Shown here: positions 16,707-51,577 of the stretch, piece by piece | Layout of the letters: each line of letters opens with the position of its first letter | How positions within the stretch are numbered: position 1 is the stretch's first letter | Origin: Romanomermis culicivorax | Taxonomy: Eukaryota > Nematoda > Enoplea > Mermithida > Mermithidae | NCBI GenBank assembly: GCA_963922205.1 | Contig: CAWUHX010000071.1 | Span: 186,001 to 250,000, forward strand | Length of the DNA: 64,000 nt | Direction: 5' to 3' | Program-made: the position numbers and the translations under genes | Notes under the pieces: model-generated | Told to the model about the DNA's origin: nothing | Databases searched by the model: none | Seen by the model: only the letters and a program-made list of their open reading frames with translations

Positions 16707-18560
16707 CCTTTATAAACAGAAATTGGAGTCTCAAATTTTCTTTGAAATATTGATGTCTAAGCGAGTAGGATGTAGATGTTACAACTACCGAAATAATTTG
16801 CTAAATCTTTCATTTTACGTGAAATTAAGTGAGTGTCGTGGCTCGAAATATGAATGAGAAAAAGGTTTGAAATGGAAATGAAAAGAGTAAAAAGCTACTG
16901 TAAAAAAATAAAAAAAATAAAATGAAGCCACTCATAAAAACAACAGGAATAGTGGCATAAGCTGAAAAATGATACAAAGTGGGAAGTGAGATATTTATTC
17001 GAAACATTGGTCATTTGATGTTGTACTTACCTGAATTACCTTAAACACTGATCAAATTTTCTCACAGTCTAAGGTCTATTCGGTACTTCAGTCTCGACCG
17101 AGACTCCAATTGTCTGGGCTTTTTTCTAGCTTTTTTATGATTTTCACCGGAATGTCCACTTCTCTCAAATTGTCACCAATGCACAACTTTACAACTCTTT
17201 ATATGAATGCGTTATCACGTAACATTTATCCATTTCTTTTCGAATTTGGTGTGGATGGCGAGACTTAAGTTTTCTCCACAAATCTTGACTAAGATATTTC
17301 TTTTATGTGATTTTAGGTCCTAAAAGTGAAGTTCTCTGCATCCTCAACTATTCACTTTATTCCAATACACGAAAATGTTAAATTCCCATTTTATAGAGAA
17401 CTCATCATCGATTTCAGCCGCGCGACATGTATGGAGTATTACACAATGTGCTTCGAAGTACCTCTACGCTGATCTGTAAATGGAATTCTCATCAGTAATA
17501 AAGTAATTGATGAATGTTTCGATAGGTTTTCACATGCACTCACATCAACTTACATATTCAATTATATTCAGGTGTTCGTGTGATAGAGCAGTGGTTAGCT
17601 GAAGTCTAATAATATTACACGAGACGTTTCTACCCGTTGATCGTTAATATTACACTCACGAAGGGAGGTTACCAGATGTGAAATCTGAAATGGCACATGA
17701 TATAGCGCATAGTACATTCGATAGATAAAAGCAAGTCGACTAATGTTACACAAACCGTTTTCCCCGTGGACTCTCTTTACACAGAAATTTGTATAAATAC
17801 GCAGAGTAGAAAGTTCGCCTATAATTTATCAGAGGAACAACAACAGATATAAGCATTGTTACAGGGCGAGCCAATATCGAAGAAGTGTGTACCTTATTTG
17901 ATTTAAGACATGACTTTAGACTGCTACGGAATTATAACTTTTCGAACTTAATCGAAGTTCCGAATTCTATATTACATAAAATATTAGAAACAGAAGTTAG
18001 TCACAAGAGCATTGTTGCAGTTTTCAAGATGATCTGTCGAATGCATGTTATGCGATTAAATATGGTTCAGCAGTTGCTGAGATCGAATGTTGGCAAAGTT
18101 GTCATATTTTGCAATATTTAAGCAAATTTCAGTTTAAAGAAGGTCCACAAGGAAAATTATTAGCGTAACATTCCTCAGGTTGTTATAGGCCATCGAATAC
18201 ACTATAACACGTATTATTTTAGAATTAACGTCAGATTGTCAGATTTAGATACTCGAATGTTTGGCATTAGCGTAATCAATCCTGGTCGGACTTCAATACA
18301 AATATCGTTTCGCGAAAATTTAATGTATAAGATCACGTATAAGATCAATAAGATTTCAGTACAAGCAAGTCTAATGAGCCAAAAGCTTCATTGTTTTACA
18401 GTTCTCACACCGTGAGGGAGGATTTACACCTTTTCGTGAAAGCTATCTATCCTTGTACTTCGTTATTGTAAAAAAGGCTGTGTGACTGTAGCTGGTGATG
18501 AATTAACCCCATCCTGATCTTGCCAGCCACCTTTGCGTGAGCTGAAATTGACCTATGCAC
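16707..18560. other. Upstream region of the receptor gene; no gene seen
   Basis: Contains a TATA-like GTATAAATAC at about 17790-17799, some 790 bases before the receptor ATG, which may mark a promoter or a 5' exon but is unsupported otherwise. A fragment of the ACACTATAACACG repeat family lies at about 18140-18235. The 17885-18121 open frame has no recognisable similarity. Confidence 0.35.
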
Positions 18561-18570
18561 AATAATGAAA

Positions 18571-18582
18571 TATTATTTCAGC
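18571..18582 (+). promoter_or_regulatory. Splice acceptor directly before the receptor ATG (cis or spliced-leader)
   Basis: TATTATTTCAG ends at 18581, one base before ATG at 18583. A consensus acceptor so close to the first codon, with an in-frame stop further upstream, fits either a noncoding 5' exon or trans-splicing of a leader as in nematodes. Sequence alone cannot separate them. Confidence 0.5.
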
Positions 18583-19124
18583 ATGATTCTACAGCATTCT
18601 AACAATTTGTCAATCGACGACGAATTTTCTTGCCGGACGCAGCATCCATGTTTTAGAGAAATTTTTGGCACCCGATGCGGGCAAATTCATAATTTGCATA
18701 CATTTAACGCAAATTTGTTCGAAATTTTAGAGTCCGAAGGTTGTAATTGCTCCACTGTACAAAATGATAATAATTTGGATAATTTGATATGCGAAATACC
18801 GCAAATCGTACGACATTCGTGGTGGACGCAAATTTTTTACTACGCCATGTTTTTGACCATCATAATTTTGTCAATAGGTGGCAACGCCCTGGTCATTTGG
18901 ATTATTTTAGCCCACAAAAACATGAGGACGGTCACTAATTATTTCTTAATTAATTTGTCATTAGCGGACGCTAGCATAGCGTTATTTAACGTATGTTTCA
19001 CTTTTACGTACAATTTGTATTATCAGTGGTGGTTCGGGTCGAATTACTGTATATTCAATAATTTCATGTCCGTCGTGCCAACTTGCGCCAGTGTATTTAC
19101 GCTGATGTCAATCAGCCTGGATAG
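18583..19124 (+). CDS. Receptor exon 1: N-terminus to TM3
   Basis: Ends within the Arg codon of the DRY motif (AG|GTAAAA), a conserved kind of GPCR splice position. Joining to 21704 gives DRYFALVRP. The exon is long and uninterrupted; the next intron is 2.6 kb and contains only repeats and chance frames. Confidence 0.92.
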
Positions 19125-22100
19125 GTAAAAATCAAAAGTTATAGTATGAACTATAAAATGATTTTCTTAAAATACTTGCGAAATCATAAAATTCGAAAAC
19201 GATTGCGATACCGTTATTCTCGGTTAAACTGAATATTCAGTCCAATCGTCTAATCATCGACAGGCTTTGAGTAAAAAATTTCAACAATCCTGCGTTATTT
19301 AGTAAGAAAGTTTCTCTTGCCTTATGTTCGGGGTGGTCCACGAAAAACCGGTCTGCCAAAAAGTGATACCTTACAATAAACAGAGCAGATCTGAAGATTC
19401 GGTCTTTTGAGTTCGATAAAAAAATTACTATAGTATCGTATCTCAAAATTTCATTCATGGTGAAAATCTCAGACTGATTGGCATAGATTAGGACAGAATC
19501 ACTCATTTTTGTGGTTTTTCATGAAATATTTTTGATGGAATCTAGAAAAATCAAAAAATTCAACGAAAAATACTGCTTTAGACTAAATTTCCGAAGGAAA
19601 AATGCTCGACGAGATTCCAATCTGTGAAAATTTGATTTCGATTAGCTATAAAACCAATTTGAAATCGTTCTGCAGCTGTCAATCAAAGAAGTATTGAAGA
19701 TTTTAGAAAATTTCGAATTTTCTTGGAAACACGATTATCAATTCAATCACTGTAGCTCAGAAAGCGGAAGTTCATTGTTCAGTCTGTTCAGTTTTTATTT
19801 GTGTTAAAGCATTTTTAAAGTGAAAATACATTATAATAGCCGCGCATAGCTGATTAGTTAGTTTTGAAAAAATGATGTGAAAAATTTTTATCAAAAAGTA
19901 GTGGTTTACTAAGAAAAAGTATAGCTCGCTCACCCTCACAACGTCAGATCATGCAGTACTTGTACTGTAAGTGTATGGTCTCTATTATTATAAAATTTGT
20001 ACGGAGTGGAAAATGACAAAAAATAGTACGGTCGTCAAAATCGCTTACACCATGCTTTAACCATAAACTTTTTCACTCAAAAAAATTAAAATTAGTCAAA
20101 TATGGTCACAAAAATTTACAGTCCTATGTGACCCGTGATTTAGCAGTAAATCGTAAAATCATGAAGAAGTAATTCTTTCTCAGTTCAGGTATAAAAAAAT
20201 TTTCGAAATCATCTTGCTGAAAAATTCTGCATTGTTTAATTCTTAAATTGAAAACAGATGAAGGTGGAAGTTATCAAAAACGCTCTAAAATGTTCTTAAC
20301 ATCGCGAAATTCATGTTAACGATAGATCATTTATTTTTTGTTTGTTTATTTTTTATTCGGTTCCAGTTTATACGACTTTCTTCAACTGAAATTAATGTTC
20401 CTTCAAACACACTGATACGTGATATTAATCCTATAATGCACTTTTTTGATTTCCACGTTTTATCCCTGCATACTGCTGGTATCTTGAACCAGTTATCAAA
20501 GAAATTTAGGTCATAACAAAAGTCGGTTTTTTAGATCATTAGCATAGAAGAAAATCAGACTTTAATTGGCAATTTGTTTTTGCAATACGTTTGCTTTTGG
20601 TAAATATATATCTGTGGAAAGAGCGGGAGGAGAAAATCGATTAATAGCAGTATATTATGGTGGTTTTCTATCAAGCATGCGATTTTTCGGTCCCCACGCA
20701 AAAAATGGTTTTGATGGTAATTCTATGTTATAAGACAGTAATAGCGTTAGTTACAGTAATCACCATTTCGAGACAAAATGGTCGTAAAATTTATTATTCT
20801 AGGATGTCGTGCGCCAACCGACATCATGCTATAGAAGCTGACTTTTCAGCTGAAAACGTTGAAAAATGTGGAAATGTAGGATAACACAAGTAGCTAACTG
20901 ATTTTGGGACAGTCTTCCACCTAATTACAGTATACTTGAAGTACGAGCCTCAAACCCCGGATTCATCTAATAACTAACCTTTCTAATGTAAATTCTTAAC
21001 TGATACAATTTATGTAGTCTATTTGTGAAAAGAACTTCTGAATTCTTAGAATTATCGAGAACAATTCAAATTCATACAGATTTTACAATAGAATTTTTCG
21101 TTTTTTTAAATCTGGCAAACAGTATAGCTGCTAGACTAACAATTTTTCCGTTGAGTATGATCTATGGTTTAGCAGAAAATAGAAATATTAAACTTACAAT
21201 ATCTGGTTCGGATTTGAGTGTTGTTGCACTGATCATTCTTCCTCTGAACTGGTTTTACACGAAAATTTGTATGAGCACATGATGCGATAAAACATGCATT
21301 CGATAGACTTTTTTGAAAATTACACAAATGCTCGTCATTCAATTAACAGCAATCTAATAACTGTTGAGTTGCACATATTTGAAATGTTGTACACTTTGAA
21401 AGTCTTTAGTTCCAAACATTAAATCAATGTCGCGAGACAGTCTACTTTTTTCATGAACTGGGACGCGAATGCGGAGAGGTAGATGTTTAAGAAGACTATC
21501 ATAATGATTGACAGATTTCACCGAGCGTTCGGTTACATCAGATAGAAAATCTTGTTTATAAAACTAGGGAATTCGAACAGAATTCAAGTTTTCGACCGAA
21601 AATTCATAGCAACATAAATAAGCTGCATATAGCCTAAATACTCAAAGAAAGCAAGTTTCAAAGCAATGACAGCATTTCAACTACGACGGTATTCTATTTG
21701 CAGGTATTTTGCCTTAGTTCGGCCTTTAAAGAGGCACATTTCGAGGAAGAAAACCTTGGCCATCATATGCCTAATCTGGATTTTTGCCTGTATGTGCGGT
21801 TTGCCCATGCTTTTGTGTTCCTACACCAAAAGCTTCTACTTTCCGAACGGTCACATCACAGTGGTTTGTTTTTCGGATAACTACCCGGACGGCGACAATC
21901 ATACAAGTGTCCTGTTATCAAGGTGCAGTAAGATTTTTAAGAGTATTACATATAAGTACGATGCGATTCCTCTCCTTCTCGAGGCTCTTGAATCGATAAG
22001 TTCATGAAGTAATAACATAATCTGGAAACTGGAAAATTTTCATTGCGAGCAGTATAGTTGATTGAGTTCAAAATTTTTCGAATTTTGAAGAAATAGTTGC

Positions 22101-28942: not shown

Positions 28943-31900
28943 TTAGACGGCTTGCAATGTCACACTAAAACCTTTGGCGTTTTCATGATCGTCCGACGTG
29001 AATTTGATGACCATATTTTCGTCGTTGCTGGTGACGGTTTTTCGGCCACCGGTAGAAGATCCAGGTGTTAGGCTATTGCCACAATACCTGAATAAGAATG
29101 TTGAATTTTCTCACAGGGAGGCAGTATGATCCCGCACCACTTTCGATCTATGAGGTCTTGAACTTCATCAAAATTTATAATAGTGTACTTCACATAATTG
29201 TCATCTGTCTAATGCATGTTTCAGCATCTTTTTTAAACTTTCCCCGTTGCTGACAGGCGAACTTGCGATTTTGCAAATTTTGTGTAAGCATGTGAAGTTT
29301 AAGACGAAGCAAAAAAGATTAGTGTAAAATTATCCGCATGCCTATAAGCTACAGAACGCGCTATAACACAACATTTACGTATTTGGAATTTACACCTGGC
29401 GACCTGCGTTTATTGTCTTGATATGAGTTTTACTGGTTCCCTGATCCAGTGGGCATGATGTGAAATTGCCATGGCCACAGTTGTGCAAATTTCAGTGTGT
29501 ACAGGACACCAGCGGAGGAGTGTAGCCTGATGGTGCAACCAAAAGTGTTTGTTTCATTTTTGTATACCACTTCGGATATCTTCATCCATAAGTTCAAGTT
29601 GTTTGAGCAACAATAACCATTAACTCCGGCTCCCATGGGGATGCCACATTTTGAATGGAGTTTTACGACGAGGTGTATCATTTGGCGATGATGAAAACAT
29701 GATTGCTCTCAGAAATAAAATTTGATCGACAGATGTTGCACTTACAAAACTTCAAGTGGAATAATTACTGTGTGACCGATTCGAATATTTATTCTATCAT
29801 TTCATCAATTCTCAAAAAATATATGTGTAAACATTTCTTTTAGCGCACGTCTAATGTACTAAAGACTTGTGTGGCCAAAAGTTCATCTAACTGAATTTTC
29901 AGGGAGGATCAAGTTCAACGACTGTCGCCATTGGATATCTCAACTTTCACTTCATTTTTCTTTAGAATTCATATCTGAAGGTCATTTTGCTATTTAGTGA
30001 ACCAATTTCAATACCGCAGGTGAGATGATGCATCGCCTCGCCCATGTCTGACCAGGGCCGTTCTTAGGGTTTTAGCGGCCCTGGGCGAACTCAGGTTTAG
30101 CGGCCCTCATTTTTTCCAATAATTATTATACACCGTCCCATTTTCAGGTAGTAGATGATTCGCTACTTTACAGACTTTAGAATATCTAAAAATGACGCAT
30201 AATTCCATTATTACATGATTTTATTATAACACATTTTTGAACCGACTGAATGACTACAACAGGTCTTTCAACTCTGTGCATGCTCATGCATCATAAACGA
30301 CATTACACAGCATATAACTTATATGTAATGCAACGTCTGCACACACCTCCATAAAACACCAAAGTGACTAAGTGTAGAGCGGTTTTTTCAAATGGAGTTC
30401 CCAGGTTTTGCACGTCTTTTTTTCCAGAATATTCCAGGGTTTTTTCAGAACAAAATTCAATTATTGCTACATAGAATAGTTCAAAAGTGTATACAGGACA
30501 GAGACCTGAGCAATGCGCTGATATTTTCAATTGCCGCAAACAGACAAGAACACAAAAACATCAACTAGAAATCAACCATTTTTTATAAATTTGGTTGAAA
30601 CAGCAGAAATCAAATCAGTTTTGAACTAAAAAAGACAAGTAAAATTTAGAAATCATTCAACCACCAAAAAAGAGAGATTCTTTGACAAGCAAAAACTTTT
30701 TTCATTGCACCGTACTAACCAGAAGCTGTAAACATGTATAACATTATAAAGCAGACATGATAATAAAAAATTACTGTTTTTCCGGAAATAAATTTTCTTC
30801 AGTATTAGATAATTTAATTTCAAGTGCAACATTTTTTCGTTTCAGTAGCTGTCTATTTTCTTCAAGTAATTATGTTTTAACTGTTTGATGGCTTTTTTGT
30901 GTCGAGAGTTGTTTTTTACCACTCTTGGCAAAAAGAAGCGCATAGTGGAAAAAACAGGTGCTTCACAAAATTGTATAATTTGTGTGTCCCGATGCACATT
31001 CCATAATTGTGTGGACTGCAAAGCTCCCAAACTTTTTCTCAAATAAGACAGATTTCTTTAAAACACGTTTCTACTCAAAAAAGCTGATATAGCTGCTGTT
31101 TCTAAACAAAATATCATTTTAAAAAACTGATCTGAAATTGTAAGACTTCTGCGCCATCATGCAGTCGACCACCAGATAAGGAAACAAGTTGGAACTAAAT
31201 GTGATATTCATACCTGTAATTGGAGGAAGGGTTTGGGAACTTAGTCAACCCTATACCCAAGCCCCTTCCAAACGCGGAAAAATGAGCAAAAATTGGGAAA
31301 AAGTACCTTTTTTGGGAAAATTTTCTATTTTTTTTCCGATTTTTCAACCCCCGTCGAACCTCTTACAGGTACGTTGATACCGAAAAATTCCTTTTATAAG
31401 CAGAACAGTTAACATTTGAAACAAAAACTCAAATAATTTTCGCCAGTAATGATCGGCTATATGAAGCTTTATAAAAAATTGATTTGGTACAAACGTAAAT
31501 TCACTGCCCTTTTTGATCATGCGTGGTAAAATATAAAATTCTGATATGAAATGTATAGTATATGTATGATTCTTTTGTGTACCGCTAACTATTGGTTTTT
31601 TTTCATTTATTTTTATTATGTTCTTTGTTTCCTTTTGTTAAGCTGCTGCAATTATAATATTATTACTCTTATTTTTAAACATATTTTTTCAGTGCACTGT
31701 AACTATACTCCATTCATCATCAAGTGATCGATGCAGCGATTGGAGTTTCGGCAAACGCTGCTTCACTGGAGATCAGGAAAAGAATTTTGATAATCTGTCA
31801 TTGAAAAGAGTGATCATCAAAGTGTCTGTATCATGAAGGACAAATTTATTGAAAAGAGTAAACAAGCCTTCCATAATTTTGATTAAAAGTTTGGATGCGA

Positions 31901-34900
31901 CATCGCTGCATCAATCATTTCAAAACGAACCGAGTATTTGGAAAATTTTCAAAATCAAGAAAAATATAATTTCCTGAAATTCGTTTCAATTTCATTATGT
32001 ACAAAACATTAATGCCACACGAGGCATCTCTCATAGGAGTATTATGCTTTAGCTGCTCTTCGATCAGAACAGTAAATCATATTGTATTACTAGCTCCAAG
32101 TATCTAGAAATATTAACTAAAAGTAAGCTTCCAAAATGTTTCTTAATGTACATTAATGATAACTTTATAACAACCATCAAGTTGGCAACGTAATAATATC
32201 AGCAGCAATTACGCTTCAAAAAACGTTAAATATTAATTATAGACGAAATAGATCTACAGATGTACTAAGAATGTTAATCGAGTAATAATTCTAGACTTCC
32301 TATCTACACTATGCAAATTTGGCTTATGATGCAATGATTCGAGTCCATCTTGCGATAAAAACAACTACATCAACAATCTATAGTCTGTTTTCCTTGAAAC
32401 GCTTCTAAATAACTAAAGTGGAAAGCAAGTAGCATTTCAGATTTTCACGATTTTTTGATAAATAATACATCATATAGGTCTGGAAATTTCTGAGCATACA
32501 GGCATCGCCTTTAACAATTTTTCGAATGAAAAATTTTATGGTAAAAGCCCTACGTAAACGATTTAGACGACAGTACTGATTTGTGTCACTTTCCTATTTG
32601 GAAGCATTTTATAAAAAACAGACTATAAATCGAAAGTCCCTGACTTTTCCATGTCTTCTAGGTTGATGGACACCCCACTAATAGCAAAAGAATTTAACAA
32701 ACTGGCACCAAAATTGTGGAGTACTGTTTGCATACAATAATAGGAAATTTTATCGAGGGCCGTTAAAAAGTCATTCTTCAAGCATAGACATCTTTAGCAG
32801 TCCTGGGCGGCCGCACAGTTCGCCCCTCTAAGAACGGCCCTGTGTCTTATTGTGGCTTTAATCCTGCTAGGATAGAAATTAAAAACTCTCGACCTCATAT
32901 CCTCAGGATGATTCGTTGCTGCCGCGCAAATCGACTTTCTAATTTCCAAATAATCGTAACACCCGTCGTCGTCAGCCGTTTCGAGCATAAAGTCATCAAC
33001 AGTTGCTTTCACTCGCATTCCTTTGGGAGCCTGAATGTGAAGATGCGTAGCACGAAAGCAGCAAATCCCAAATCTAATGTCAGTCACAAAAATTTGAACA
33101 AAATTTCGAATAAATGACTTAGGGCCCAAATCAACACCTTTGGCTACATACAAAAGTTTCAATACTGACGTTAATGGAATCACGAAGACATGCGGGTCAT
33201 AGTTATTATAGTCTATTCATTTTCCAATGAGCCCCCGAAAGCAAAATAATCCGTAGGAATCAGTGAGCAGAAATTTTTTTTCACAACTTGTTCGTCTAAC
33301 TGCCACAGTTAACTTGAGAAAAAATGAGCCAGTTCCGTATACGTCGGTTGTTTGCTATGAACATCTTCTACAGGCCGAGGTTATTTAGAAAAAATTAACT
33401 ACAGATCACTTACTGCAATTGTTCCAGACTGTCAAGTGTGTTTTCCACAGTCAGCTCAGCCGCACTTTGTAGCTGTACTTTGTTCATTTACTTTAATTAA
33501 GTTCGTTTTGGTGCCAATTCTGCACTCATCATTAGACAAAGATCTATCAATTGCCCACTTACCGTACAAATGCTTCCACATTAATGGAGACTCTCCAGGT
33601 GTGTTTTTGAAATGCTTGTAAATATCAGAAGTGGTAATCAAGTACTACTTCATATTTTTACCTTTTCCTGCTAAATCACGTGTCATATAAGACTGGAAAT
33701 TTATGAGCCTATTCAGCTAACGCTTTTCATTTTTTGAGCAAAAAATCCTACAGTGAAAGCTATTTGTAAACGACCAAGAGGGCGGTATTTATTTTTTGGA
33801 ATTTTTCTATTTACAAGCAATAAAAACAGACTATATATGTATGCGAATAAAGTTACTCTAATCTTTTTAGCCAATAGGCCATATTTACACTAAAATGTGC
33901 ATAAATGTGGTTTACAGTCGTAAATTCGCCTGTGCTCGATATCAGCAACGGGGAAAGTTTAAGGTGCTGCAGAGACACGCATTATACAGATACTATACTA
34001 TACAGATGAGTTCAAGTGCTCACAGATCGGAAATTGTGCGAGCGCATATTGTCTTCCTGTGAGAAACTTTTCCGTTACCAGCAAGTTTTATCGAATATGA
34101 TTTTCTACTTTTTTTGGTATGAGTAAACTTTCCATTTTTAGCACATTTATGCAAATTTCAGCGTATGGGCCTTTGGTCAAACGTGGTTAGTGCAACACGT
34201 TCAGTCATACATATAAACGAGCTCCATTCAAAAACAAAATTCGAATTTTTTGTCTGAAAATTTCAAAAAATGGTCCAAAAAATTTTTTGTTTAAACAAAC
34301 ATAACAATATCGATATTTTCGACCATTTTTTGTTCAATAATCACGATTTTCTAAAAAACTGACATTTTCCATTTTTCATGAGGAGTGGGTTCCTATGGTT
34401 GCCACGTGGCTAGGTCCTATGGCACTTTACCCTCAATCACAAGTATTATTCAGGCTGCTGTCGGTTATCAAACGCGCTATAACACGTCTAATTACATAAT
34501 TTACTCTTGGAGACCCTCGCTCTTTCGTGGCCTTAATAGTATACTACGTTAAGTCTTTTCACAAAAAAATTTGGTTTTAACTATTGAACGGCTTGATGAA
34601 ATCCTGATGAAAACTATGCCAATTTACTCGACCCAATTTTTAAAGGCAAAAGGAAATATAGACTAAAGAACCCACAAGCGAAGCAAGCCCAGCCTTCCCT
34701 GATTCTTCGCAATGAGGAGCAATAATAATTTTAACTTTGAACAGAAAAGTGGAACATGATTCCTGACTTGATTACTGTAACTTATTATTTTGTGGTAATA
34801 CTGGACAACCGTGTATATCGTATTAGATCACAGATGATATAATAGGCGGCCTTAAGCGGAGTTTCGGTTTCATTTGGTAGCAAATGAAAGCAAAAAATAA

Positions 34901-35333
34901 TCAATGGAAGACAATAAATACTGACAGAGCGAGAAAAATGGAACAATGGACTGGTTTGTTTGGGAAAATAGAAATTTACAGAAGCAATTCTTAAACTGAA
35001 CCCTGAAGAACTGTATCACGACCAACGTATCATACAAAACATTGATCTGTAAGGGATGGCAAAAACTTTCAATCAAAATTTTTGCGAATGTTTTCACAAA
35101 TTCAATAAGTAATTTTTAGGCTAACTGTTCAATTTTTACCAAAATTTCTCTGCACAGCAGATTAATTATCAAGATAGAAAATCGAGTAATTATTAATGTT
35201 TCAACAGTCTGACTTACTCTAATCCACCAAATGCATAAGGAGTTGTAACCATATTCGCGGGGGTAATTGGGAGACGTAATTTTTTGTTGGATCCCACTTT
35301 GTAGATCAATAACCTTTCCGCATGTCAAGTGTC
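28943..35333 (-). CDS. Astacin gene exons 16-18: C-terminal CUB domain
   Basis: Exon 16 (35333-35218): TCGKVIDLQSG, TSPNYPREYGYNSLCIWWIR. Exon 17 (33030-32894): APKGMRVKATVDDFML, DDDGCYDYLEIRK. Exon 18 (29087-28943): YCGNSLTPG, TSNDENMVIKFTSDD, NAKGFSVTLQAV, stop. Together they make one CUB of normal length with both Cys pairs. The exon 17 donor is read as ATGAG|GTCGAG (phase 2); AGAAA|GTCGAT upstream is also phase 2 and would remove 13 residues between LEIR and YCG. The last intron (3.8 kb) contains a hAT-like element. Confidence 0.88.
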
Positions 35334-38300
35334 CTGTAACAAAAAATGATCCTTACCCGACGGATTAGGCTACACTGAATGGACAAACGTACCATATTTG
35401 AGTGCATGATTAATATTTTCGCAAAATTTTCCCGTAGCAAATTTGGGGCATACACATTCGCAATTCGTAGGACTGTGATAGCCGCCATTGTAGCACCAGC
35501 CGTGGCAGTAGGAACGCTTCAGTTTTTCTGTGAAGCATAAAACATTGAGAATCTAATGTTCGAAAGAGCCTTGGGATTTAGAGAAATCTATAGGCAGATA
35601 TAATAAATCAGTATCGTATGCCAATATCTTCCTTCCCGAGTTGTGATTGCTACAGTCAACCTGGGATAGAAGATTACGCTGCAGCTTTATCATTTGCATG
35701 GGCATTTTCTGCTTTCTGAAGCTCTTTTGAAAAAAGTAAACTATTCGGAAAGGAGTCGAATTTTTTTACTAGTTTGATATGTACGTAAAAATCGGGACTG
35801 CGGAAAAATGCAATTTTTGAACAGCTTATAGAAATTGAAATATGACCCAAGGAAAAGACAACGTCACTTGAATTTAGTTTGACGCTGCACGTCTAAAAAT
35901 ACAGGTCTGGGAGTGTTCCCAAATCTACCTAAATCTTCACAAGACGAAAAGCATGGTTCATACGGCACAGAAGGATCTTTCGTATAACACCAAGGTCCGC
36001 CAGCCCATTTGTCGGGATTGCGACAAGACTCGTGATTTCCAAGACTAGTGTATCTGCAAATAATCTCTCGACATGCGGTTACGTGATTATAAGCATTGTG
36101 ACGTACCTGTGCTTTTGGGGATACTGAGTCGCCCAATTTTGACACGTTCGTCCGCTGATGGTCATCGTCAAGTTGCCATTGAAATTGACGTTCGGCAATT
36201 CGTTTTTGTTGAAGCAAGATTCTAAAAAATGCAAATTTAGATAGAAAAATCAGTAAAATGTCGTGTTGACCATTCGACCTTGGCAATAAATTCTATTGAT
36301 CAACGAAACATCACCGAACGCCGGCTCTTCTCTCTGACCCATTATAGTCTCCATGACAGGGTCTAACGGACAGATAGTCATGAGACCGTTGGTTGAAGAT
36401 GCCTGAAAAATATCCAAGTCAGCTGACATGACAATGCAAAAAATCATGATTGATTTTTTTAGAATAACCTTCAATTCGGAAAATAATGTGGCACTGCAAG
36501 AAAATTCTAGGAGCGAAAAAATAATTTGCTTCAAACTTTGGGCACGTCAGATTTGACATTAGCGATTCGGTAGTTCAAACTTAGAATCACATCATTCCGC
36601 AAATTTTGAGAAAAAATTATACAGTAAAAGCTTTTTATTTTCGACACGTAATTTACAAACGTTTCATTAAAAATATGGAAAATGGTGCGCAACAGAAACA
36701 TAATGAAGTGCAGATGATAATAAAAATTTAGTAGTTTCCAAAAGCTGGCCCGAAGAATGCCTTTTCAAAGAATACTGTATACTGCAGTAATCAAAAGTAA
36801 TATCCGGGAAGCGATCCTACATGTTACTACTACTAATAATACTACTAATACCGATAAAAATCCAATGTTCATTACTTAATTCCGCAACTTGAAAGGAAAG
36901 TTAATTTTGAACCCACAAGTTTTGTCATAGGGAAATGAATGGGTGAAGCCTAGTAAAGAAGATTTCAAGTTCAGCACTCCGAATTTGCTTCGAATAAAAT
37001 TATTATTAGAGTAAAGGCACACGAAACAGATTTTGCATACGCCTTTTATGCTGCAATAACTTGATTAGAATTTGTTGCAGACAGTGTTTTTTTGCATTAT
37101 GCAAAACTTTTTCCGCTCGTGTAAAACTTTAATAATCATTATTATTTATTGTGAAGCTCAGGCATGTCTACCTTCACTTATCACCATCGTCTTAAACGTA
37201 TTATTTCATGTCTAATTGGCGATTTTCAATATTATCATAGGTGGCGCGATAGCGTCAACCTATAATATACTTGGCCCCCAAATTTCATGTCCCACCCCTC
37301 TAGAGCAAAAACGGTAAGAACTAGAATCTTCGGGTTTTTTGCATAATTTCAGGCATATTGGCAAACTATGAGGTGCCTTTGGTCATTTCGCCTCTATCTG
37401 CAAGTGGTGCTCGGTGGGGCCCCAAAAACATGCAAAAACGCACTTTTTAAGGCCCCTCAGTTCCACCACGCCCAGCAATGGGTGTGCCATATCCATGCTT
37501 CATACTACGGCCTAAGCATCTTGGGGGTGCAATCTCAAATGCGATTTTTTATTTTTTTGAAATATGGCCTCAATTCAATTATATAGTGGTCCAAAATCCC
37601 GGAAAACGCCGAATTACCCAATTTTGTTATATAATACTTACGGCTTCAAAAAAAAATTTTTGCAGCATAATGCACCACTAATTTTTTTGCAGTTTCAATT
37701 GAACCTGTAGCCTTATTGGGATTTTTGGGTTGCAACGGTTTTCGACCACTGGGAATTTGATGGACGCGGTAACTTTACACGAAAAATTATCTCGGGTGTA
37801 AACAAGCGTATTTCCGTGATTTTTCAGTGGAGGGAGTTTTCGACCGCGGGGAATTCAATAGACGTCCTCACTTTACACAAAAAAATTATCTTGGGTGTAA
37901 ACAAGCGTATTGCCGTAATTTTCTTGTGGGGGGGGGGGGATTTTCGACCACGAGGAATTCAAAGAATGTGATCACTTTACACAAAAAAATTATCCCGTGT
38001 GTAAACAAGCGTATTTTTGTGATTTTTTTCTGGAAGAAGTTTTCGACCACGAGGATTTTTATGAATGCGATCACTTTACACGGAAACTTATCCCGGGCGT
38101 AAACAGACGTATTTTCGTGATTTTTCGGTGGACGGGGTTTTTGATCGCGGATGCATCATTTTACACGAAGCAAACTATCTGGGGTGTAAACAAGCATATT
38201 TTTGTGATTTTTTATGCAAGGAGTTTTTGACTGCGGGGAATTCAATGGATGAGTCACTTTACACAAAAAAATTATTCCGGATTTAACCAAGCCTATTTTC

Positions 38301-41300
38301 GTGATTTTTTTGTGGAAGGGGCTTTCGACCATTGGGAATTTAATGAATGCGATCACTTTAAGCAAAAAATTTTTCTTCGGAAGGGGTTTTCGATCACTGG
38401 GAATTCAATGAAAGTGATCACTTTACACACTAATTCATATTGAGTGTAAACAAATGTATTTCTACGATTTTTGAGGGAAGATGCTTCTGACCATGGGGAA
38501 TTCAATGGACATAGGAAGTTTACACGAAAAAAAGTCATTTGTGTAAACAAAGGTATTTCTGCGATTTTTTGGGTTGAAGGCTTCTAGACCATGAGGAATT
38601 CAATACATATGGTCACCTTTCAGTCTGTTTACAACGTTTTTTAAGTACTATGCGGTTTACACATGTTTTACTTTTGACGCAAGTGAGAATTCGTAGCTTG
38701 AAGATGGTTTTTTATTGTTTTTTTGACGTGAAGATGACCAAATTTAAAACTTCAATGTGCTTCTATGAAAGTTTTCGGGCATGGTTGGGGCCCACTAAAA
38801 AGAGGTGAACTAGTTTATTAGAAAATGCCCCGATGGGGCAGAAAAAAAGAGAATATACTTGCTTCGATAGTTGCCATGCTAGAAAAAGAAGTGGACTAGA
38901 TTTTTGAGAACTTGGGTCAAAGTTGGAAAAAATTCACTTCCCTTATATTGGATTTTCATTCTTTCTCAAAAAAATTGTCTATGTCTGTGAAAAAGTATAT
39001 TCTGCAGCTGAGTGCATCAACACACTTTCCAACCGATGTGCATCTCTGACATTTTTAGAATGGTACAGGCGTGGACCTTGATGTTTTGGCATTTTGTGAG
39101 ACAAAAAATCCAAAAAAAGTTGACCAAAAAATTTTTTGCACAACAAATTTTCCATTTTCAAAACCCTTGTGGAAGTTCATACCCCCATGTATCCTCTCAC
39201 ACATGTTTGCTTCCAACTGTGTTAAATATTTTTACTGAATTTGATGTCAACAAAAGGAATCAACTGTGGGAAAGTGGCACATGAAATCCCATTTAGCTTT
39301 TTTAGAAAAAAGAGCTACAGCACAAAGTCTTCTAAGAACTAAATTGATTGTGCAAGATACGTTTCATTCACTCATTTTATATAACATATCATATAGAATT
39401 CACTCCGTAAGTTCTACTGATTACAAGCTAGAAACAAATTTATTCCCTTCTATTTAACTATTGAACAAAATAGCATCATTCGCAGTTTTTGGATTTAAAC
39501 TGAAATTTGTAGAAATAGTGCTTTTTGCGGGATTGCAAATGGGAAGCAATTTCACCCATCTTTGTCGCTCCGATCCTGCTTTCAAAAAAGTCGTACTGTT
39601 GCCGTGGGAGTACGAGTAGAGTTGGGGAGAACCGGGTACGGGATTTCGCGCACACTCCTAATATAGGCATCGGTGAATCAGGTGCATTTTTGCTTTACCC
39701 TGTTCTCCCATTTGCAGATCGGTGCCCAATGACTGTAACCAAGGCCCAGTTGCACTAAAGAGGTCTGAGCTCGAGCTCAAGATAATCTCAAACAAGAAGG
39801 CGACTCGGTTTGATCTCAAGTTTGGTATAATTTGAATGTCATCAGGATTATAACAAGCTCAATGTCGAGATTATCCCCAGCTCAAGATGTCGGGTTGCAC
39901 TAAAATTTTCGCATAATTTTCTTATCTCTAAAGCAAATAAATATAAATATTTCTGTAATTTCCAAACCCGAACTTAAACCTCAGGTTTAGTTAATCTTGA
40001 AGTGAGTATGGTTTGTGCATTGGAAGAAAATAATTTGCACATTGTGAATAGCTCAAACTTAGGATCATCAATTTAATCCCGATGTTGAGATTATCCTCAT
40101 GCTGGGTTAGTGCAACGAACCTCAGGTTCCTTTATAGTTCTGAAAATGACTATAATATGTATGCCTCCCTCACTATTTTTCAGATAGTGTGAGAGGCAGG
40201 AGTTTTGAATTGGTCGGGAGATAGAATGCTATTGGTTTACCATTTCTTTACATTTATAGTCATGTGCATATAATTTTCATATAGAAAAATTTTACTGTAG
40301 TTAATGCCAGGGGAAGGACAAAATGCACGATGCTGCAGAATATACTTTTTCACAGACATAGAAAATTTTTTTCAGAAAGAATGAAAATCCAATGTAAAGA
40401 AAGTAAATTTTTTCCAACTTTGACCCAAGTTCTCAAAAATCTAGTCCACTTCTTTTTCTAGCATGGCAACTATCGAAGCGAGTATATTCTTCTTTTTTCT
40501 GCCCCATCGGGGCATTTTCTCATAAACTAGTATCATTATATGTGATGAAGATCCCCATTCTTCTCTCATGCATTTTTTGAGAAAGATCAACACATCAACT
40601 TGGTGCATTTTAGAAGGTCATAATCTCAAAATTTTCCGGCGCTTCGAGCCGGTTATTACCTTAATAATCATTAATATGTATTACATAGCTCAGACGCGGC
40701 TTTTAGAATGTCTACCTTCACCTATTATTTAATCTATTATAGTTTTCATCATCCCAAACGTATTATCTCATGTTCTAAATGGTAATCTTCAATATTATCT
40801 TGATATTTAATGAAGATTCTCAGTTTTTCTTTGAAACATTTTTTGAGAAAGATCAATCCGTCAAGTCACTAAACCTTTTGAAGTGATTATTCCTTTCTTA
40901 ACGTAAAATCAATCCAGAAGCTTTATCGAAGAAGTTTTCGGAAATTTCTACTCTTCCACTCATATCTTTTCGGCCAAGTTCATGAGAGTCAACGAATAAA
41001 TCACTGGTTTTAAAATTTTCAAATAATAAAATTCTAAAAATTACGATTTTTGAACACAAAATTTAATTCTTGAAATAAATGTTTGGAAAATTGATTTTGA
41101 TGCCTCGCCGAATGTGAATAGACGAAAATTTTCTGGCGCTTGGCGCCGGAACGATTAACATCTTTTTTGGGCTCTCACTTGTCATCATAGAGGACTTAAC
41201 TGTCGATTTATCATCTAATGCAAATTCATCATGCTATTGGACAGTTTTCTAGAAAATTTGTTCCACAATGCTTGTTAATTAGACTTGAAACTCGAGAATT

Positions 41301-44300
41301 TCAGTTTTTTGCTCAATTTTAATGTTTGTAGCTATAAATTAAATTCGAAAATTACACTGATTTGGTTATTAGTCTTTGGCCATGACATAGAATAACACAG
41401 GTTACTTATTTATACCTATTTTTGCTATGTACTAATTGTACAAATGAAATATTGACTGCTGTTTGTACATGTGTAAATGGGTCATGTACAAAAAAACCCC
41501 GTTTATAGTACAAAAAAATTTTTTGGCGTGCAAAACTTTTTTGGTGATTTTTTTACACCGTGCAAAACTTTTTTGGTGATTTTTTTGCACCGTTCAAAAC
41601 AGCTCGTGCAAAAAAACACTGGTTGCAGACGAATAAAGCTCAGCCAGTTATTCTAGATGTTCAACGTAGTCCTCATGATCATAAACTCACGTATGGAAAA
41701 TAGTGCATGATGGAGTCGTAAAAATAAGGTACGCCCCATTCGTCGAATTGCCTATCGTTATTTTTATCGAACTGCGACCTCCACGAAGGTGCTATATTTT
41801 GCATGGCGACGTTCACCGCACGGTCCCTGTCCACTCGTTTTTGGCTGTGAGCCAATCCCAAAGCGTGGCCTAATTCGTGGGCTATACTGCCCACCTGAAA
41901 TCGTTTTTTATAGCACCATAGCAAGGATGGACAAGATCATGCTCACCAAATCTGAACATTGAGCTGTGTCGATTACTGTAGTATACGGCGGACTCTGATT
42001 CGGTCCGAGACGGTCGGTAGAACAGGACCTGCAAATTATTTGGACAAAGTAAGGTCAATTTTTAATGGTTTTATTGTGGATGTCTCAGCTGTAATTTGAA
42101 TTCGAAATAGTCACATTGCGAATGGCTGCATTTCTTTGGAGTGCAGATACCAGTCAAAACATGCCGAAATTTGAATCGAAGCCAAGCTTAGTGATGTTCC
42201 GATATGTACTCTGATCAAGGATACTCTTTCTGTAGAGACACGAAATAGGAAATGGTTCAGAGAAAACGCACTGCCTAAAAGAATTTTAGTCGACTAATTA
42301 TTCTACAGATTCTACATGATAGCCCATCTACTCTATAACTTTTCGCCTTAAACTTTCCTACAGTACATTTTAAGCTGTCACTTACAGCAAACCACTGCCT
42401 TTACCTTTTGGTGTCGATTTTAGCACGCAATTTCAAAATTGAGAAATCAGCATTATTTGCCTTGTTAACCATTTTCTAAAGATATCTTGCCACCAATGAA
42501 TATTGGAAACATTAGACAGTGAAGTTTTGGTTTCTCTGCTGTAGTCGCCCATTTTGTCTGTCAGGAGAAAAATCAGTTTTATACTCCATTCATTTTGAAA
42601 TGATTGATGCAGCGAGGTCGCGGCCAAACTTTTATTCGAAATTATGCAAGGCTCGTTGACTCTAATCAATAAATTTTTCTTTGGTGATCGATCATTTTAA
42701 AATGAATGGATTAAAATAAAGCTTGTTGTTTTCCAAAATTTTCGATGCTTCTTTTATGGAGAAGAATCGAAAAATTGTTTTAAACCAACTGACGTTAAAT
42801 TTATTTCGAATAATATTCTATCATGTATCGTTAGTCAATATGACACACTCCGGCGATGTTTTTCCTCGAGTTTTAAGGTTCTACTGGACTTAGATCATTA
42901 AAAAATTCCAAGAAAACGAGCAGAATTCGAGGGTTTTACGTCGAGCTATCCCAACCAGTTTGTGGATTTCGAGACCAAATGAAATTTCAGCATGATTCTA
43001 ATGTAGTTTTGCTTACAAAAGCGAAAACCATAAGCCCATATCTATTGCTGGTTACTGTAATTTTCGGAAATCGACCACAAGTGAAATAACCGTTTTAGTA
43101 TTTAACCTTCTAGCACATACCCGGAGAAGCTCAGAGTCATTAGTATATGCGGTTCAGTCAGTCTCGCCGAAGAAGATTGCTCGTGGAATTTCAGGCACGT
43201 TTTATTTTGCCAAAATTGCCATGCTTTACGGACGTTGTTTCTTTTGGACTCGGGATCTGGGGGGAAAACGAATATACAGATTAATCTTCAAAACTTTAGT
43301 GTAACTCTGGCGTCGTACATGAACTATCGAATTTGATCAAAATACGTTCGGGATCGGGCCATAAAAGTCGAACCGAACTGTACGACTCGGAACGTTTCTT
43401 CCTTTCTGAACGTAACGGCTGTTCTTGTTGGGTCCATTTACCGCGCTTATGACCACCTCTTTTACGTTCTTGGCAAGGCTGGAAGTGTTCGCTTTGGGCG
43501 CCGTCGGCCGACGGCCCTTTCGACGTATGCTGGAAGTCAATTTTGCACGAACGGGCCAAATGTTGTATTTCCTAAAAATATTTCCCAGGGTTTAGCTGAT
43601 CCTGAAAAATCTTAAGTTTTTGACTTTTATTGACGTTATCACGGTAGATTGGTATAGGCTACTGTCATTCCATGACACTGTAGTTATTATAAATTCTACT
43701 GTACTGGGGCCGGTCGCAATAACTAATGCTGAGGATCATCGCGAGCTCGGTATTAAGTTGTTTATGCTGAGAATTAGCTAATCGCGAGCTCAGTTTCATC
43801 TTTCTCGGGTTGCAATAAAAAAATCGAGCTCGCGATTAACTGATGCTCAGGTTTAAGTCCGAGCTCGCGATTATCTCGACCTTCCAGGAAGAAACATTGC
43901 CAATACATTATATTACCTGCATGGAGTGAAAAGTAAACAAAGGTTGGTGAAAAAACACTGTGCCCAACATTGTTTGTTTTTCTGTTTGCTGTTGGTATGT
44001 CTTTTGTTCCCCCTTAAATTTCGAGTAGTTTCAAGGAGAAAACGCATTCCAAAGTGAACACCTAGAAAAGAAGTACTTTTGAGAGAAATTTGTTTCGAAT
44101 ATCGATTAGCTTTGGATTTGGACAGCTCATTAGCTGCATCTTAACCTTCTCGATTTGTTTACGACAATGGTATAATATGTAGTTAAGCTAGTAGTTAAGC
44201 TACAGCTGCAGTTCAGCTGATAAAACCGGCCCCACGTCAGCTGATGAAACCGGCTCCTTGATGAAACCGGCCCCACGTCTGGAATATAATCGGAGCCGAA

Positions 44301-50300: not shown

Positions 50301-51577
50301 CATCTAAAGTTCGTTCAACTTGGACATGTCTAAAGTTATACGCGTGTAACTTTAGACACTTTCTGAGAAACCGGCCCCAGTTGTATTATTTGCAGTTGGT
50401 GCAACGCAGTTTCTTGAAAAATGCATTCAGCTACAATATTTTCGATTATGATTATTACAGCTGATACCAAAATAGCAAAAACTAGAAATTTAACCCCTCT
50501 AATTTCTCAATTTTTTGTTGATCATTTCAAAAGTTTGCATTCTGGAAAGCTTTTGGAATTCTATTAATACTAATAATCAACAGGGTTCCACCAAAAAATG
50601 ATAGGTATGCATTTTTCCAAGAGTCAACCCGAAGGTAGCATCTGCTTGGGGAGTTTAGAACTCATCCAGGAAGTGTTCGACCTTACCCGAATAGGTGCTT
50701 AACCCACAAGGAGTAACCTTCGGAGGCGACCAAGCATTTTTTTTGTTTCATAGTGCAACATATGAGTTCATCAGATATCGTTGAGGTCTGTCCAAAAACA
50801 TTATTCAAAATGACGGATCTCAATTTTTGACGGATTCAGAGGTAATTAGAGTTTGGTTCAATTTTGGTTGATCTGCTCCAGATATTAAATGCTCCTGATC
50901 TTATTGTCAGAAGTGAGTATCCCCAGAAACTGGTACGTAGTTTTTAGCTTTTTTTAGTCAGGTTCTATACGGAATACGCTTTTCCACACGAAAATGTATC
51001 ACATCTTTTATCATTCCTATTCCATTTAATTCGTCAAGAGAATAAGGTTTGAACAAAAGTTCCACCGCCTTCATTCATGAATTTAAAAAATTTATCATTT
51101 TATCATATAAGTCATTTTTTTCGTACCTTCCATAAACGGGTTGGAAATAAGAAATCTAGATAAAATTCCGAAATATTTTTCCCCTAGCTAACAGCAACAG
51201 ATCCCCGGAAAAGAAATCAAATCAACATGAGATTTTTCTCACCATTATCGTCGCCATCATCTTCGTCGTCGGAACTTGGTGTTGGTGGAGCTCGATCTGT
51301 GATTTCATCATCCGTTCTTGGTTCACTGACTTCCTCTATAGACGATTGGCGAGACAGGCCTGATCTTGTCCTTTCTGTGATAGAGACTCCATTTACAGAA
51401 AAAACCTGATGTTAAATGCCAGTGCTATTTTACCTTTAAATGTCACAGCCTGAAAAAAACAGAATGCAACATTGCAATAGTACTCGGAATGAAAAGTCGA
51501 TGAAAATAACTTACGAATATTCCTTCAAAAACGACGAATATGCTGAAAAATAACAATATACAATGTTTCGACTTCAT
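28943..51577 (-). CDS. Secreted astacin metalloprotease with kringle, EGF and CUB domains, 18 exons
   Basis: Predicted zinc endopeptidase of the astacin (M12A) family, secreted and probably furin-activated. Minus-strand exons: 51577-51515, 51405-51243, 46720-46625, 46571-46530, 46183-46082, 45975-45959, 45866-45720, 43571-43319, 43256-43121, 42028-41947, 41894-41691, 36402-36279, 36221-36107, 36053-35929, 35527-35393, 35333-35218, 33030-32894, 29087-28943. Phases agree throughout and total 733 residues. Order: signal peptide (1-18), polar propeptide, RKKR (267-270), catalytic domain (271-477) with HELGH (373-377), third His 383 and SIMHY (428-432), kringle (about 478-553), EGF (560-598), CUB (603-733). 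Catalytic to CUB exons are firm; propeptide exons 3-7 rest on phase, splice consensus and coding-like composition. Astacin-EGF-CUB is the usual nematode NAS layout; the kringle between is unusual. Substrate unknown; cuticle or matrix remodelling would be a guess. Confidence 0.85.
29115..29410 (+). repeat. Interspersed repeat family B, copy 2
   Basis: Same block order as 26030-26345: GATCCCGCACCACTTTCGATC, ATGTTTCAGCATC, CCCCGTTGCTGACAGGCGAAC, AAAAAAGATTAGTG, GCGCTATAACACAAC. It lies in the last astacin intron. The Cys-containing minus-strand frame next to it (29430-29681) is skipped by the phase-consistent CUB junction, so I treat it as intronic. Confidence 0.6.
31210..31376 (+). repeat. ATACCTGTA-family MITE, copy 1
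   Basis: Begins CATACCTGTAATTGGAGG, contains TTTTTTGGGAAAATTTTC and a run of C, ends CCTCTTACAGGTA. Related copies: 53433-53688 (inverted), 58980-59190 and 59610-59834. Short inverted termini (TACCTGTA / TACAGGTA) mark it as a TIR element. Confidence 0.7.
31705..31935. repeat. CATTCATTTTGAAATGAT-family MITE, near-complete palindromic copy
   Basis: Left CTCCATTCATCATCAAGTGA then TCGATGCAGCGA, right TCGCTGCATCAATCATTTCA. Both arms are visible, showing that this family is an inverted-repeat MITE. Other copies: about 112-345, 7796-8000, 42580-42716. Confidence 0.7.
32378..32628. repeat. TAGTCTG-family MITE, best-preserved copy
   Basis: Begins CTATAGTCTGTTTTCCTTG and ends AAAAAACAGACTATA; 251 bp. 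It shares GTGGAAAGCAAGTA, the TTTTTCGAATGAAAAATTT centre and GCATTTTATAAAA with the other copies. Sits inside the hAT-like element. Confidence 0.8.
33600..33836. repeat. TAGTCTG-family MITE copy between astacin exons 16 and 17
   Basis: Left TTTTTGAAATGCTTG; right ACAAGCAATAAAAACAGACTA. Body retains TCATATAAGACTGGAAATTT and the TAAACGA block. The adjacent minus-strand frame at 33456-33641 is open but is excluded by the phase-0 junction joining the two CUB exons. Confidence 0.7.
33845..34080 (-). repeat. Interspersed repeat family B, copy 3 (inverted)
   Basis: CTCTAATCTTTTTAGCC, TAAATTCGCCTGTG, CAGCAACGGGGAAAGTTT and TCACAGATCGGAAATTGTG are reverse complements, in reverse order, of blocks in the copies at 26030 and 29115. 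A further fragment with GCGCTATAACACG lies at about 34430-34530. Confidence 0.6.
35393..35527 (-). CDS. Astacin gene exon 15: EGF-like domain
   Basis: One phase 1-1 exon encoding YCHGWCYNGGYHSPTNCECV, then CPKFATGKFC. The six-Cys pattern with NGGY..P.NC and a CxCP..xG.xC end is that of the EGF module following the catalytic domain in nematode-type astacins. Confidence 0.9.
35929..36221 (-). CDS. Astacin gene exons 13-14: kringle domain
   Basis: Two exons (36221-36107 and 36053-35929) encode a complete kringle of about 75 residues: ESCFNKNELPNVNFNGNLTM, SGRTCQNWATQYPQKHRY, ESCRNPDKWAGGPWCYTKDP, YEPCFSSC. All six kringle Cys are present, as are the diagnostic TCQ-W, CRNPD and PWCYT segments. 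The intron splits the domain in its middle (after HR), and both flanking junctions are phase 1, so the two-exon module could have been inserted or lost without breaking frame. Kringles bind proteins or glycosaminoglycans and usually serve as targeting modules in secreted proteases. Confidence 0.9.
36279..36402 (-). CDS. Astacin gene exon 12: end of catalytic domain
   Basis: Encodes ASSTNGLMTICPLDP, then TIMGQREEPAFGDVSLINRIYC. MGQR, the D-x-x-x-I-N block and the final YC are standard for the astacin C-terminal subdomain; TMGQRE with IN..YC is especially frequent in nematode NAS proteins. It joins SIMHYFPY across a 5.3 kb intron in phase 0. A Cys in TICP is additional to the usual four. Confidence 0.9.
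37735..38610. repeat. Minisatellite of roughly 100-bp units, about 8-9 copies
   Basis: Each unit has TTTCGACCA..GGGAATTCAA, a CACTTTACAC block, AAAAATTATC..GGGTGTAAAC, AAGCGTATTT and GTGATTTTT. Units diverge and vary in length. Frames across it give repeating peptides on both strands (for example NKRIFVIF), which are by-products. It lies in the intron between astacin exons 11 and 12. Confidence 0.85.
38809..40531. mobile_element. 1.72-kb element with about 207-bp terminal inverted repeats
   Basis: ACTAGTTTAT then AGAAAATGCCCCGATGGGGC at the left end matches the complement at the right end (GGGGCATTTTCTCATAAACTAGT), and the match continues past GTATATTCTGCAGC (39000) and GCTGCAGAATATAC (40330). 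Interior frames (39012-39284, 39266-39457, 39476-39758) are not recognisable as a transposase. A second element is nested at 39743-40135. Confidence 0.8.
39743..40135. mobile_element. Nested short element with CCCAGTTGCACTAA ends
   Basis: Left GGCCCAGTTGCACTAAAGAG, then GAGCTCGAGCTCAAGATAATC; right GAGATTATCC, then GGGTTAGTGCAACGAACCTC. The inverted ends and internal repeats of AGATTATCTC/GAGCTC resemble 43706-44274. No coding content. Confidence 0.6.
40620..41152 (+). repeat. Hairpin-ended repeat family H, copy 1
   Basis: Runs from AAAATTTTCCGGCGCTTCGA to AAAATTTTCTGGCGCTTGGC, then GCCGG, i.e. each end carries a GGCGC-loop-GCGCC-like hairpin beside AAAATTTT. The interior matches 53877-54415 in reverse complement (for example TTCAATATTATC, AATGAAGATTC, GAAAGATCAAT) and a fragment at 37125-37250. 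Confidence 0.75.
41691..43571 (-). CDS. Astacin gene exons 8-11: furin site and catalytic core
   Basis: Exon 8 (43571-43319) ends the propeptide with ERKKR, then WPDPERILIKF, the usual start of mature astacins. Exon 9 (43256-43121) has VRKAWQFWQNKTCLKF, with the first conserved Cys. Exon 10 (42028-41947) has SGSCSTDRLG and AQCSDLV. Exon 11 (41894-41691) has HELGHALGLAHSQKRVDRD, with three zinc His and catalytic Glu 374, and the Met-turn SIMHY including the Tyr ligand. The residue after the third His is Ser rather than the family Glu that normally anchors the mature N-terminus. Confidence 0.92.
42580..42716. repeat. CATTCATTTTGAAATGAT-family MITE, short copy
   Basis: TACTCCATTCATTTTGAAAT at left and ATTTTAAAATGAATGGAT at right; contains GCAAGGCTCGTTGACTCTAA. 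Lies in the intron between astacin exons 9 and 10. Confidence 0.7.
43706..44274. mobile_element. Element with GGGGCCGGT termini
   Basis: GGGGCCGGTCGCAATAACT at the left and ACCGGCCCC at 44267-44274 (also 44225-44232) on the right. The left half is packed with CGAGCTCGCGATTA motifs in both orientations. The short GC-rich termini and internal palindromes resemble 48045-50378. I would place both with the Harbinger/ISL2EU-like group, with low certainty. Confidence 0.5.
44380..44780 (+). pseudogene. Decayed Myb/SANT-like, transposon-associated protein
   Basis: Pieces in different frames read VGGPPDSCLPSENSQTIIEA near 44410 and KLASESEKINLEKEKFESEK near 44660-44710, then a stop at 44778-44780. A GGPP segment followed by a Glu/Lys coiled coil resembles Myb/SANT-like proteins, often partners of Harbinger-type transposases. 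Several stops and frameshifts separate the pieces. It is on the opposite strand to the astacin gene, within its intron. Assignment is from pattern only. Confidence 0.4.
45720..51405 (-). CDS. Astacin gene exons 2-7: polar, low-complexity propeptide
   Basis: Exon 2 (51405-51243) is acidic and Ser-rich, ending PSSDDEDDGDD. Exons 3 (46720-46625) and 4 (46571-46530) are Arg/Gly- and Lys-rich (GERGIRRDDD, DWRRRGKSKGK). Exon 5 (46183-46082) is GKSKSKFGGRPSETDTDDEG plus a Ser run. Exon 6 is a proposed 17-nt microexon (45975-45959). Exon 7 (45866-45720) is Lys-rich (KHKGKKKGK), then SYLWQGKLVRRAGPD and HVPEHD before GAC|GTAAGT. Phases 1/1/1/1/0/0 chain correctly into the catalytic exons. Astacin propeptides vary widely, so membership is inferred from context; I see no FxGD zinc-blocking motif. 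Confidence 0.55.
47085..47677. mobile_element. Solo LTR (593 bp) with ATTG target duplication
   Basis: Starts TGTTATATCT and ends CACTACAACA, so it has TGTT...AACA termini, flanked directly by ATTG at 47081-47084 and 47678-47681. It is far more GC-rich than its surroundings and contains an AAATAAAG polyadenylation-like signal near 47290. No internal retroelement coding sequence adjoins, as expected after recombination between two LTRs. It lies in the large intron between astacin exons 2 and 3. Confidence 0.7.
48302..48551. repeat. TAGTCTG-family MITE, inverted copy
   Basis: Right end AAGAAAAACAGACTATAG and left TTTTATAAAATGCCTCC fit the family in reverse orientation; body retains GTCAAAATCGTTTACAT and AGTCCTACATGATA. 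Confidence 0.8.
48878..50152. mobile_element. TAGGGACCTGCACG-terminated element nested in the previous one
   Basis: Left TAGGGACCTGCACGGGCC, right GGCTCGTGGAGGTCCCTA; short GC-rich inverted termini around an AT-rich 1.2 kb interior. The termini resemble hAT-type ends with GGGCC motifs, but no 8-bp duplication could be matched. No transposase frame. Confidence 0.65.
51515..51577 (-). CDS. Astacin gene exon 1: signal peptide
   Basis: MKSKHCILLFFSIFVVFEG encodes a short basic start, a hydrophobic core and a small-residue end, i.e. a secretory signal. It stops at a strong ATTC|GTAAGT donor in phase 0. An ATG further upstream in frame (51631) would bury the signal, so 51577 is preferred. Confidence 0.7.

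Follow-up and report, generated by a model that had tools for sequence, protein, structure and literature searches.

The subgroup III astacins of C. elegans typically consist of a catalytic domain with one EGF and one CUB domain, according to the portion of PMC2824743 used here. We examined a gene that appears to elaborate on this plan, in a stretch of 64,000 nucleotides from the mermithid nematode Romanomermis culicivorax (assembly GCA_963922205.1, contig CAWUHX010000071.1, positions 186,001 to 250,000 of the forward strand; hereafter the window), where a predicted astacin carries a kringle between the catalytic domain and an EGF-like and a CUB module. The kringle (PS00021) is one of 31 entries in the Figure 1 legend of astacin accessory domains in PMC9848320, the available part of which also cites a survey counting more than 100 additional domains in the astacins of 154 helminth species; the kringle may be among these. 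An earlier note on this DNA, made from its letters, had left the kringle out of the known astacin accessory domains, which makes its list incomplete. Its companion statement, that no characterised astacin has one, agrees with the literature covered: a functionally characterised astacin with a kringle was not found in the accessible parts of PMC9848320, PMC12549020, PMC10855680, PMC6626399 and PMC11788884, and the word "kringle" is absent from the main text of PMC12549020 as far as that text was available. The pairing of astacin and kringle as such is already listed, and the layout in the window is real, well supported and moderately surprising.

The gene model comprises 11 exons on the minus strand, running from 43571 to 28943 and joined by ten GT-AG introns, and predicts a protein of 523 residues ending at a TAA codon; exon borders were set by eye to hold the reading frame. 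The positions reported earlier for the start of the frame (43571), the stop (28943) and the junctions 36279/36221 and 35929/35527 proved exact. The HELGH...SIMHY core, six-cysteine kringle and CUB domain that had been read on one strand were all recovered by Pfam, in the order Astacin, Kringle, CUB and each above its cut-off, and two exons added here, E2 and E3, complete the catalytic domain. The exons, in window coordinates and with the evidence for each, are as follows.

43319..43571, minus strand: exon E1, prodomain tail, RKKR convertase-type site and start of the catalytic domain; phase 1 into E2
43121..43256, minus strand: exon E2, catalytic domain (WQFWQNKTCLKF); spliced model, Pfam, solved-structure match
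41947..42028, minus strand: exon E3, catalytic domain (GSCSTDRLG..AQCSDL); spliced model, Pfam, solved-structure match
41691..41894, minus strand: exon E4, zinc site HELGHALGLAH (41879-41847) and Met-turn SIMHY (41714-41700); Pfam
36279..36402, minus strand: exon E5, end of the catalytic domain (GQREEPAFGDVSLINRIYCQ), phase 1 out; Pfam, paralogue exon
36107..36221, minus strand: exon K1, first half of the kringle, phase 1 in and 2 out; Pfam, paralogue
35929..36053, minus strand: exon K2, second half of the kringle, phase 2 in and 1 out; Pfam, paralogue
35393..35527, minus strand: EGF-like exon, phase 1-1; six-cysteine pattern by eye, 53% identity to the paralogue
35218..35333, minus strand: exon C1 of the CUB domain; spliced model, Pfam
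32894..33030, minus strand: exon C2 of the CUB domain; spliced model, Pfam
28943..29087, minus strand: exon C3 of the CUB domain and TAA stop; spliced model, Pfam

The catalytic domain matched Pfam Astacin (PF01400) at 150.3 bits (cut-off 22.5, E 6.5e-44) over profile positions 2-189 of 189, with the zinc motif HEXXHXXGXXH present as HELGHALGLAH and a Met-turn, SIMHY, that includes the zinc-binding Tyr. Its best match among solved structures was BMP1 (E 8.3e-20), where the conserved Trp is residue 10 of chain 3edh, a chain that presumably begins at the mature N-terminus; in the window gene the convertase-type site RKKR (43403-43392) lies 10 residues before this Trp. A Pfam match to Peptidase_M10 (26.3 bits, cut-off 24) covered the zinc site only and scored far below Astacin, and was set aside as the shared metzincin motif. 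A search of NCBIfam returned just two bacterial metalloprotease models, both below cut-off.

The kringle matched PF00051 at 43.1 bits within the whole protein (E 5.4e-11) and at 48.8 bits alone (E 9.2e-13; cut-off 34.3), and phmmer against the PDB matched it to the kringles of plasminogen, HGF, prothrombin, ROR and apolipoprotein(a). All six kringle cysteines and the TCQxW, CRNPD and PWCYT motifs are present in the translation and in the PDB alignments. In lysine-binding kringles a DxD anionic pair and a late Arg form the lysine site; the second Asp of the pair and the late Arg are missing both here (CRNPDKW...PSVPYEPC) and in a paralogue on contig C41 (CRNPDNL...PSVLYEPC). The loss of these residues from both copies makes protein binding likelier than lysine binding, and to judge from its residues the kringle probably does not bind lysine in the manner of plasminogen kringles. 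The exon that follows encodes six cysteines with EGF spacing by eye, and the CUB domain matched PF00431 at 70.4 bits (cut-off 21.4).

A search of the genome (359 Mb in 595 contigs, the window lying on contig C71) with the protein model found the collinear paralogue at C41:548963-554551 on the minus strand, in nine matches of 38-73% identity. Identities were 44% for E1, 38% for E3, possibly with the last part of E2, 42% for E4, 47% for E5, 48% for K1, 73% for the second half of K2 (26 residues), 53% for the EGF-like exon, 44% for C1 and 48% for C2; in this search C3 was unmatched and E2 was matched at most partly. Within 700 bases read at C41, the counterparts of E5, K1 and K2 are open and free of stops, with GT-AG junctions; the kringle begins and ends in phase 1, and one additional intron within it divides K2. 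The two kringles are identical at 49 of 80 columns, with a proportion of synonymous differences (pS) of 0.85, which is saturated, a proportion of non-synonymous differences (pN) of 0.23, and a bootstrap 95% range for pN/pS of 0.18-0.39. Saturated synonymous and few non-synonymous differences suggest an old duplication after which the kringle was kept by selection. When kringles from elsewhere in the genome were added to the alignment, the two astacin kringles shared 50 of 80 positions, and their best identities to the six others were 34 and 39 of 79, both to a kringle on contig C30 (kringle b). A shortened loop before CRNP is common to the C71 and C41 kringles and absent from the other six, which points to one insertion. 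A diverged, collinear paralogue with the same layout indicates a genuine domain combination and not a reading error, and together with the in-phase model it bears out the earlier claim of one gene with the kringle between the catalytic domain and EGF-CUB. With the C41 protein as query, 17 matches were obtained across the genome, on C41, C71, C30, C77, C33, C25 and C63 and, weakly, at the astacin loci of C1 and C294; in this search, which scores its best candidates, none of the matches listed was a third astacin-kringle gene.

As had been proposed from the window, the kringle is a two-exon module with phase 1 on both sides: the junctions of E5 with K1 and of K2 with the EGF-like exon are both in phase 1, and K1 and K2 together measure 240 bases. 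The introns are 57 bases before K1, 53 after K1, 401 before the EGF-like exon and 59 after it. The accompanying suggestion that the module entered by exon shuffling gains support from the kringle-bearing C41 gene and from an astacin on contig C219, in which the last catalytic exon ends in ...MNRIYC and a codon split in phase 1, an EGF match starts 154 bases after the conserved Cys of MNRIYC, and a CUB match lies further on. Four AG sites lie between this donor and the EGF match, three of them entering in phase 1, and the exact acceptor is thus ambiguous; no kringle match was found within 10 kb around the C219 astacin (E up to 1). Exon shuffling of a symmetric 1-1 module would lead one to expect just such a direct join of catalytic domain and EGF across a phase 1 intron. 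Comparison of these genes makes it very probable that an EGF-CUB-type astacin gene gained its kringle once, when a phase 1-1 module was inserted in the intron that follows the catalytic domain, and that the gene was then duplicated and the kringle held in both copies by purifying selection. The nearest kringle found in the genome outside astacin genes is kringle b of C30, to which we do not assign the status of donor. The kringle-less C219 gene, the window gene and the diverged C41 copy occur together in one genome, which makes this a clean example of exon shuffling: a phase 1 intron can be named as the site of insertion, and related genomes could supply a date. The gene is also a well-supported domain fusion, set against numerous spurious ones in the annotation of helminth genomes.

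It is conceivable that K1 and K2 act as a cassette pair, such that both an astacin-EGF-CUB and an astacin-kringle-EGF-CUB isoform are made. Skipping these 240 bases, with their phase 1 flanks, would preserve the phase, and C219 is an example of a gene in which the catalytic domain is joined directly to EGF; we rate the production of both isoforms as rather unlikely, with a chance that is nonetheless appreciable.

Several observations weigh against reading the gene as a single, active astacin-kringle-EGF-CUB protease. The spliced model is a prediction from genomic DNA and the in-phase fit of its exons is partly by construction, while the donors after E5 and C2 (GTCGA) are weak in comparison with the usual GTRAGT. 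A signal peptide, N-terminal prodomain exons and the prodomain Asp switch were not found upstream of E1, whose 5' end is uncertain (a candidate in-frame acceptor lies at 43529, and the paralogue match starts at the adjoining model residue 16); an FxGD-like match at 51212, single and loose within 43.3-64 kb of the minus strand, was not counted as part of the gene. At C41, three of the nine matching stretches, including that of E3, cross a stop, in a search that reads through introns, and the 700 bases read there cover E5 and the kringle, the evidence for the other exons being the positions and identities of their matches. The EGF-like exon had no Pfam EGF match even at E up to 1; what stands of the EGF domain claimed earlier is the cysteine spacing and the 53% identity to the paralogue, for which reason we use the name "EGF-like" only.

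To these must be added a substitution at the active site, where Ser stands in place of the family-specific Glu that follows the third zinc His (HSQKRVDRD), with RxDRD kept, so that protease activity could be altered. The predicted protein departs in this respect from the strict EXXRXDRD motif definition, and the name astacin is owed to the profile match, as a deviating form. Examination of 51 loci in the genome gave ten distinct zinc motifs, seven with Glu at the family position (two of these interrupted by a stop directly after the Glu) and, among the remainder, two with V and T. The Ser would fit a catalytically dead or weakened astacin that serves as a binding or decoy protein, but the three His, the catalytic Glu, RxDRD, the Met-turn, the switch Tyr and the convertase-type site are all kept, and the motifs with V or T show that the position varies elsewhere in this genome; we regard such a protein as improbable. 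The least plausible explanation, which was rejected, is that the astacin protein has no kringle and that the kringle exons come from another gene, separate or nested, or from a read-through message: the donor before K1 is weak (GTCGAA), but a promoter and a start could scarcely fit into the short introns on either side of K1, intron phases agree on both sides of the kringle, and the identical order and phases recur at C41 under purifying selection.

Read as one astacin-kringle protein, the product would be a secreted zymogen that is cut at RKKR by a furin-type convertase, after which the active protease would cleave extracellular-matrix or cuticle proteins, and the kringle, EGF-like and CUB modules would serve as exosites for a protein substrate or partner. 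The earlier note had suggested that the kringle might direct the protease to matrix or to a polymer substrate. Secretion, convertase activation and the matrix or cuticle peptidase role are suggested by analogy with C. elegans astacins, four characterised members of which, all in subgroup V, act on eggshell or cuticle (PMC2824743, in the portion used). A secreted, convertase-activated matrix or cuticle protease with kringle-EGF-CUB exosites is our leading but tentative proposal for the product, held at somewhat less than even confidence. More doubtful still is the possibility that the gene represents a new type of nematode metalloprotease, with the kringle, a module otherwise most familiar from clotting and HGF-type proteins, as a rigid exosite directly behind the astacin domain, the lost lysine site and loop deletion marking its repurposing for one specific matrix or signalling protein, and perhaps cassette splicing. 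A matrix-type protease family would have gained a module whose binding role is directly testable.

The genome contains other kringle and astacin loci. A search with PF00051 gave at least nine matches and did not pick up the kringle of the window gene, whose sequence is divided between exons. Contigs C25 and C33 hold near-identical astacin and kringle loci that are possibly haplotype copies; they were rejected as astacin-kringle genes, with astacin exon and kringle about 62 and 37 kb apart on the contig, and their kringle lies behind another Cys-containing stretch that looks lectin-like by eye and has no Pfam lectin match. On C77 (401851-407180, minus strand) there are four tandem kringle-like pieces, three ending in EPCFxxC like the astacin kringle, and one of the two tested exceeds the Pfam cut-off. 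In 26 kb of C77, tblastn found no match to the window's catalytic domain (E up to 1), and PF01400 had none on this contig among the matches listed (150 of 185 candidates scored). An EGF and two kringles, including kringle b, occupy C30:1563001-1566319, and at C63:166130-169824 a kringle is divided between two stretches; behind the second, inspection by eye shows a hydrophobic segment of transmembrane-like character, and the locus may encode a ROR-type receptor. The genome also gave 50 matches to the cuticle-collagen N domain, a family that is, to our knowledge, nematode-specific, which marks the genome as that of a nematode.

Elsewhere in the window, a 98-base tandem repeat of about 6.5 copies (37738-38369) lies in the 5.3-kb intron preceding E5. 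Two open frames on the plus strand at 18541-22004 matched rhodopsin-type G protein-coupled receptors (Pfam 7tm_1, 74.5 and 31.9 bits), and an aldose 1-epimerase gene at 6170-618 on the minus strand has three open frames over successive parts of the profile. Rfam at gathering scores gave no match in the window, and ARAGORN returned none there. SL1 (RF00198) had no match either, but neither did its control, and this result therefore carries no weight.

The spacing between convertase-type site and conserved Trp is roughly alike in the window gene and in BMP1/tolloid (nas-39, subgroup VI). The window gene differs in having one EGF-like and one CUB module, where BMP1/tolloid has two EGF and five CUB (PMC2824743, in the part used), and in its kringle and the Ser in place of Glu. 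For the kringle already listed among astacin domains, the available text of PMC9848320 names no species, order or function. With the kringles of plasminogen, HGF, prothrombin and ROR the window kringle shares the six-cysteine signature, but its loop before CRNP is shorter, and neither the second Asp of DxD nor the late Arg is present. Those kringles sit on trypsin-fold or kinase proteins. With subgroup III the window gene has the catalytic-EGF-CUB arrangement in common; by its predicted sequence it resembles that subgroup and falls outside it, through the kringle added between the catalytic domain and the EGF-like module.

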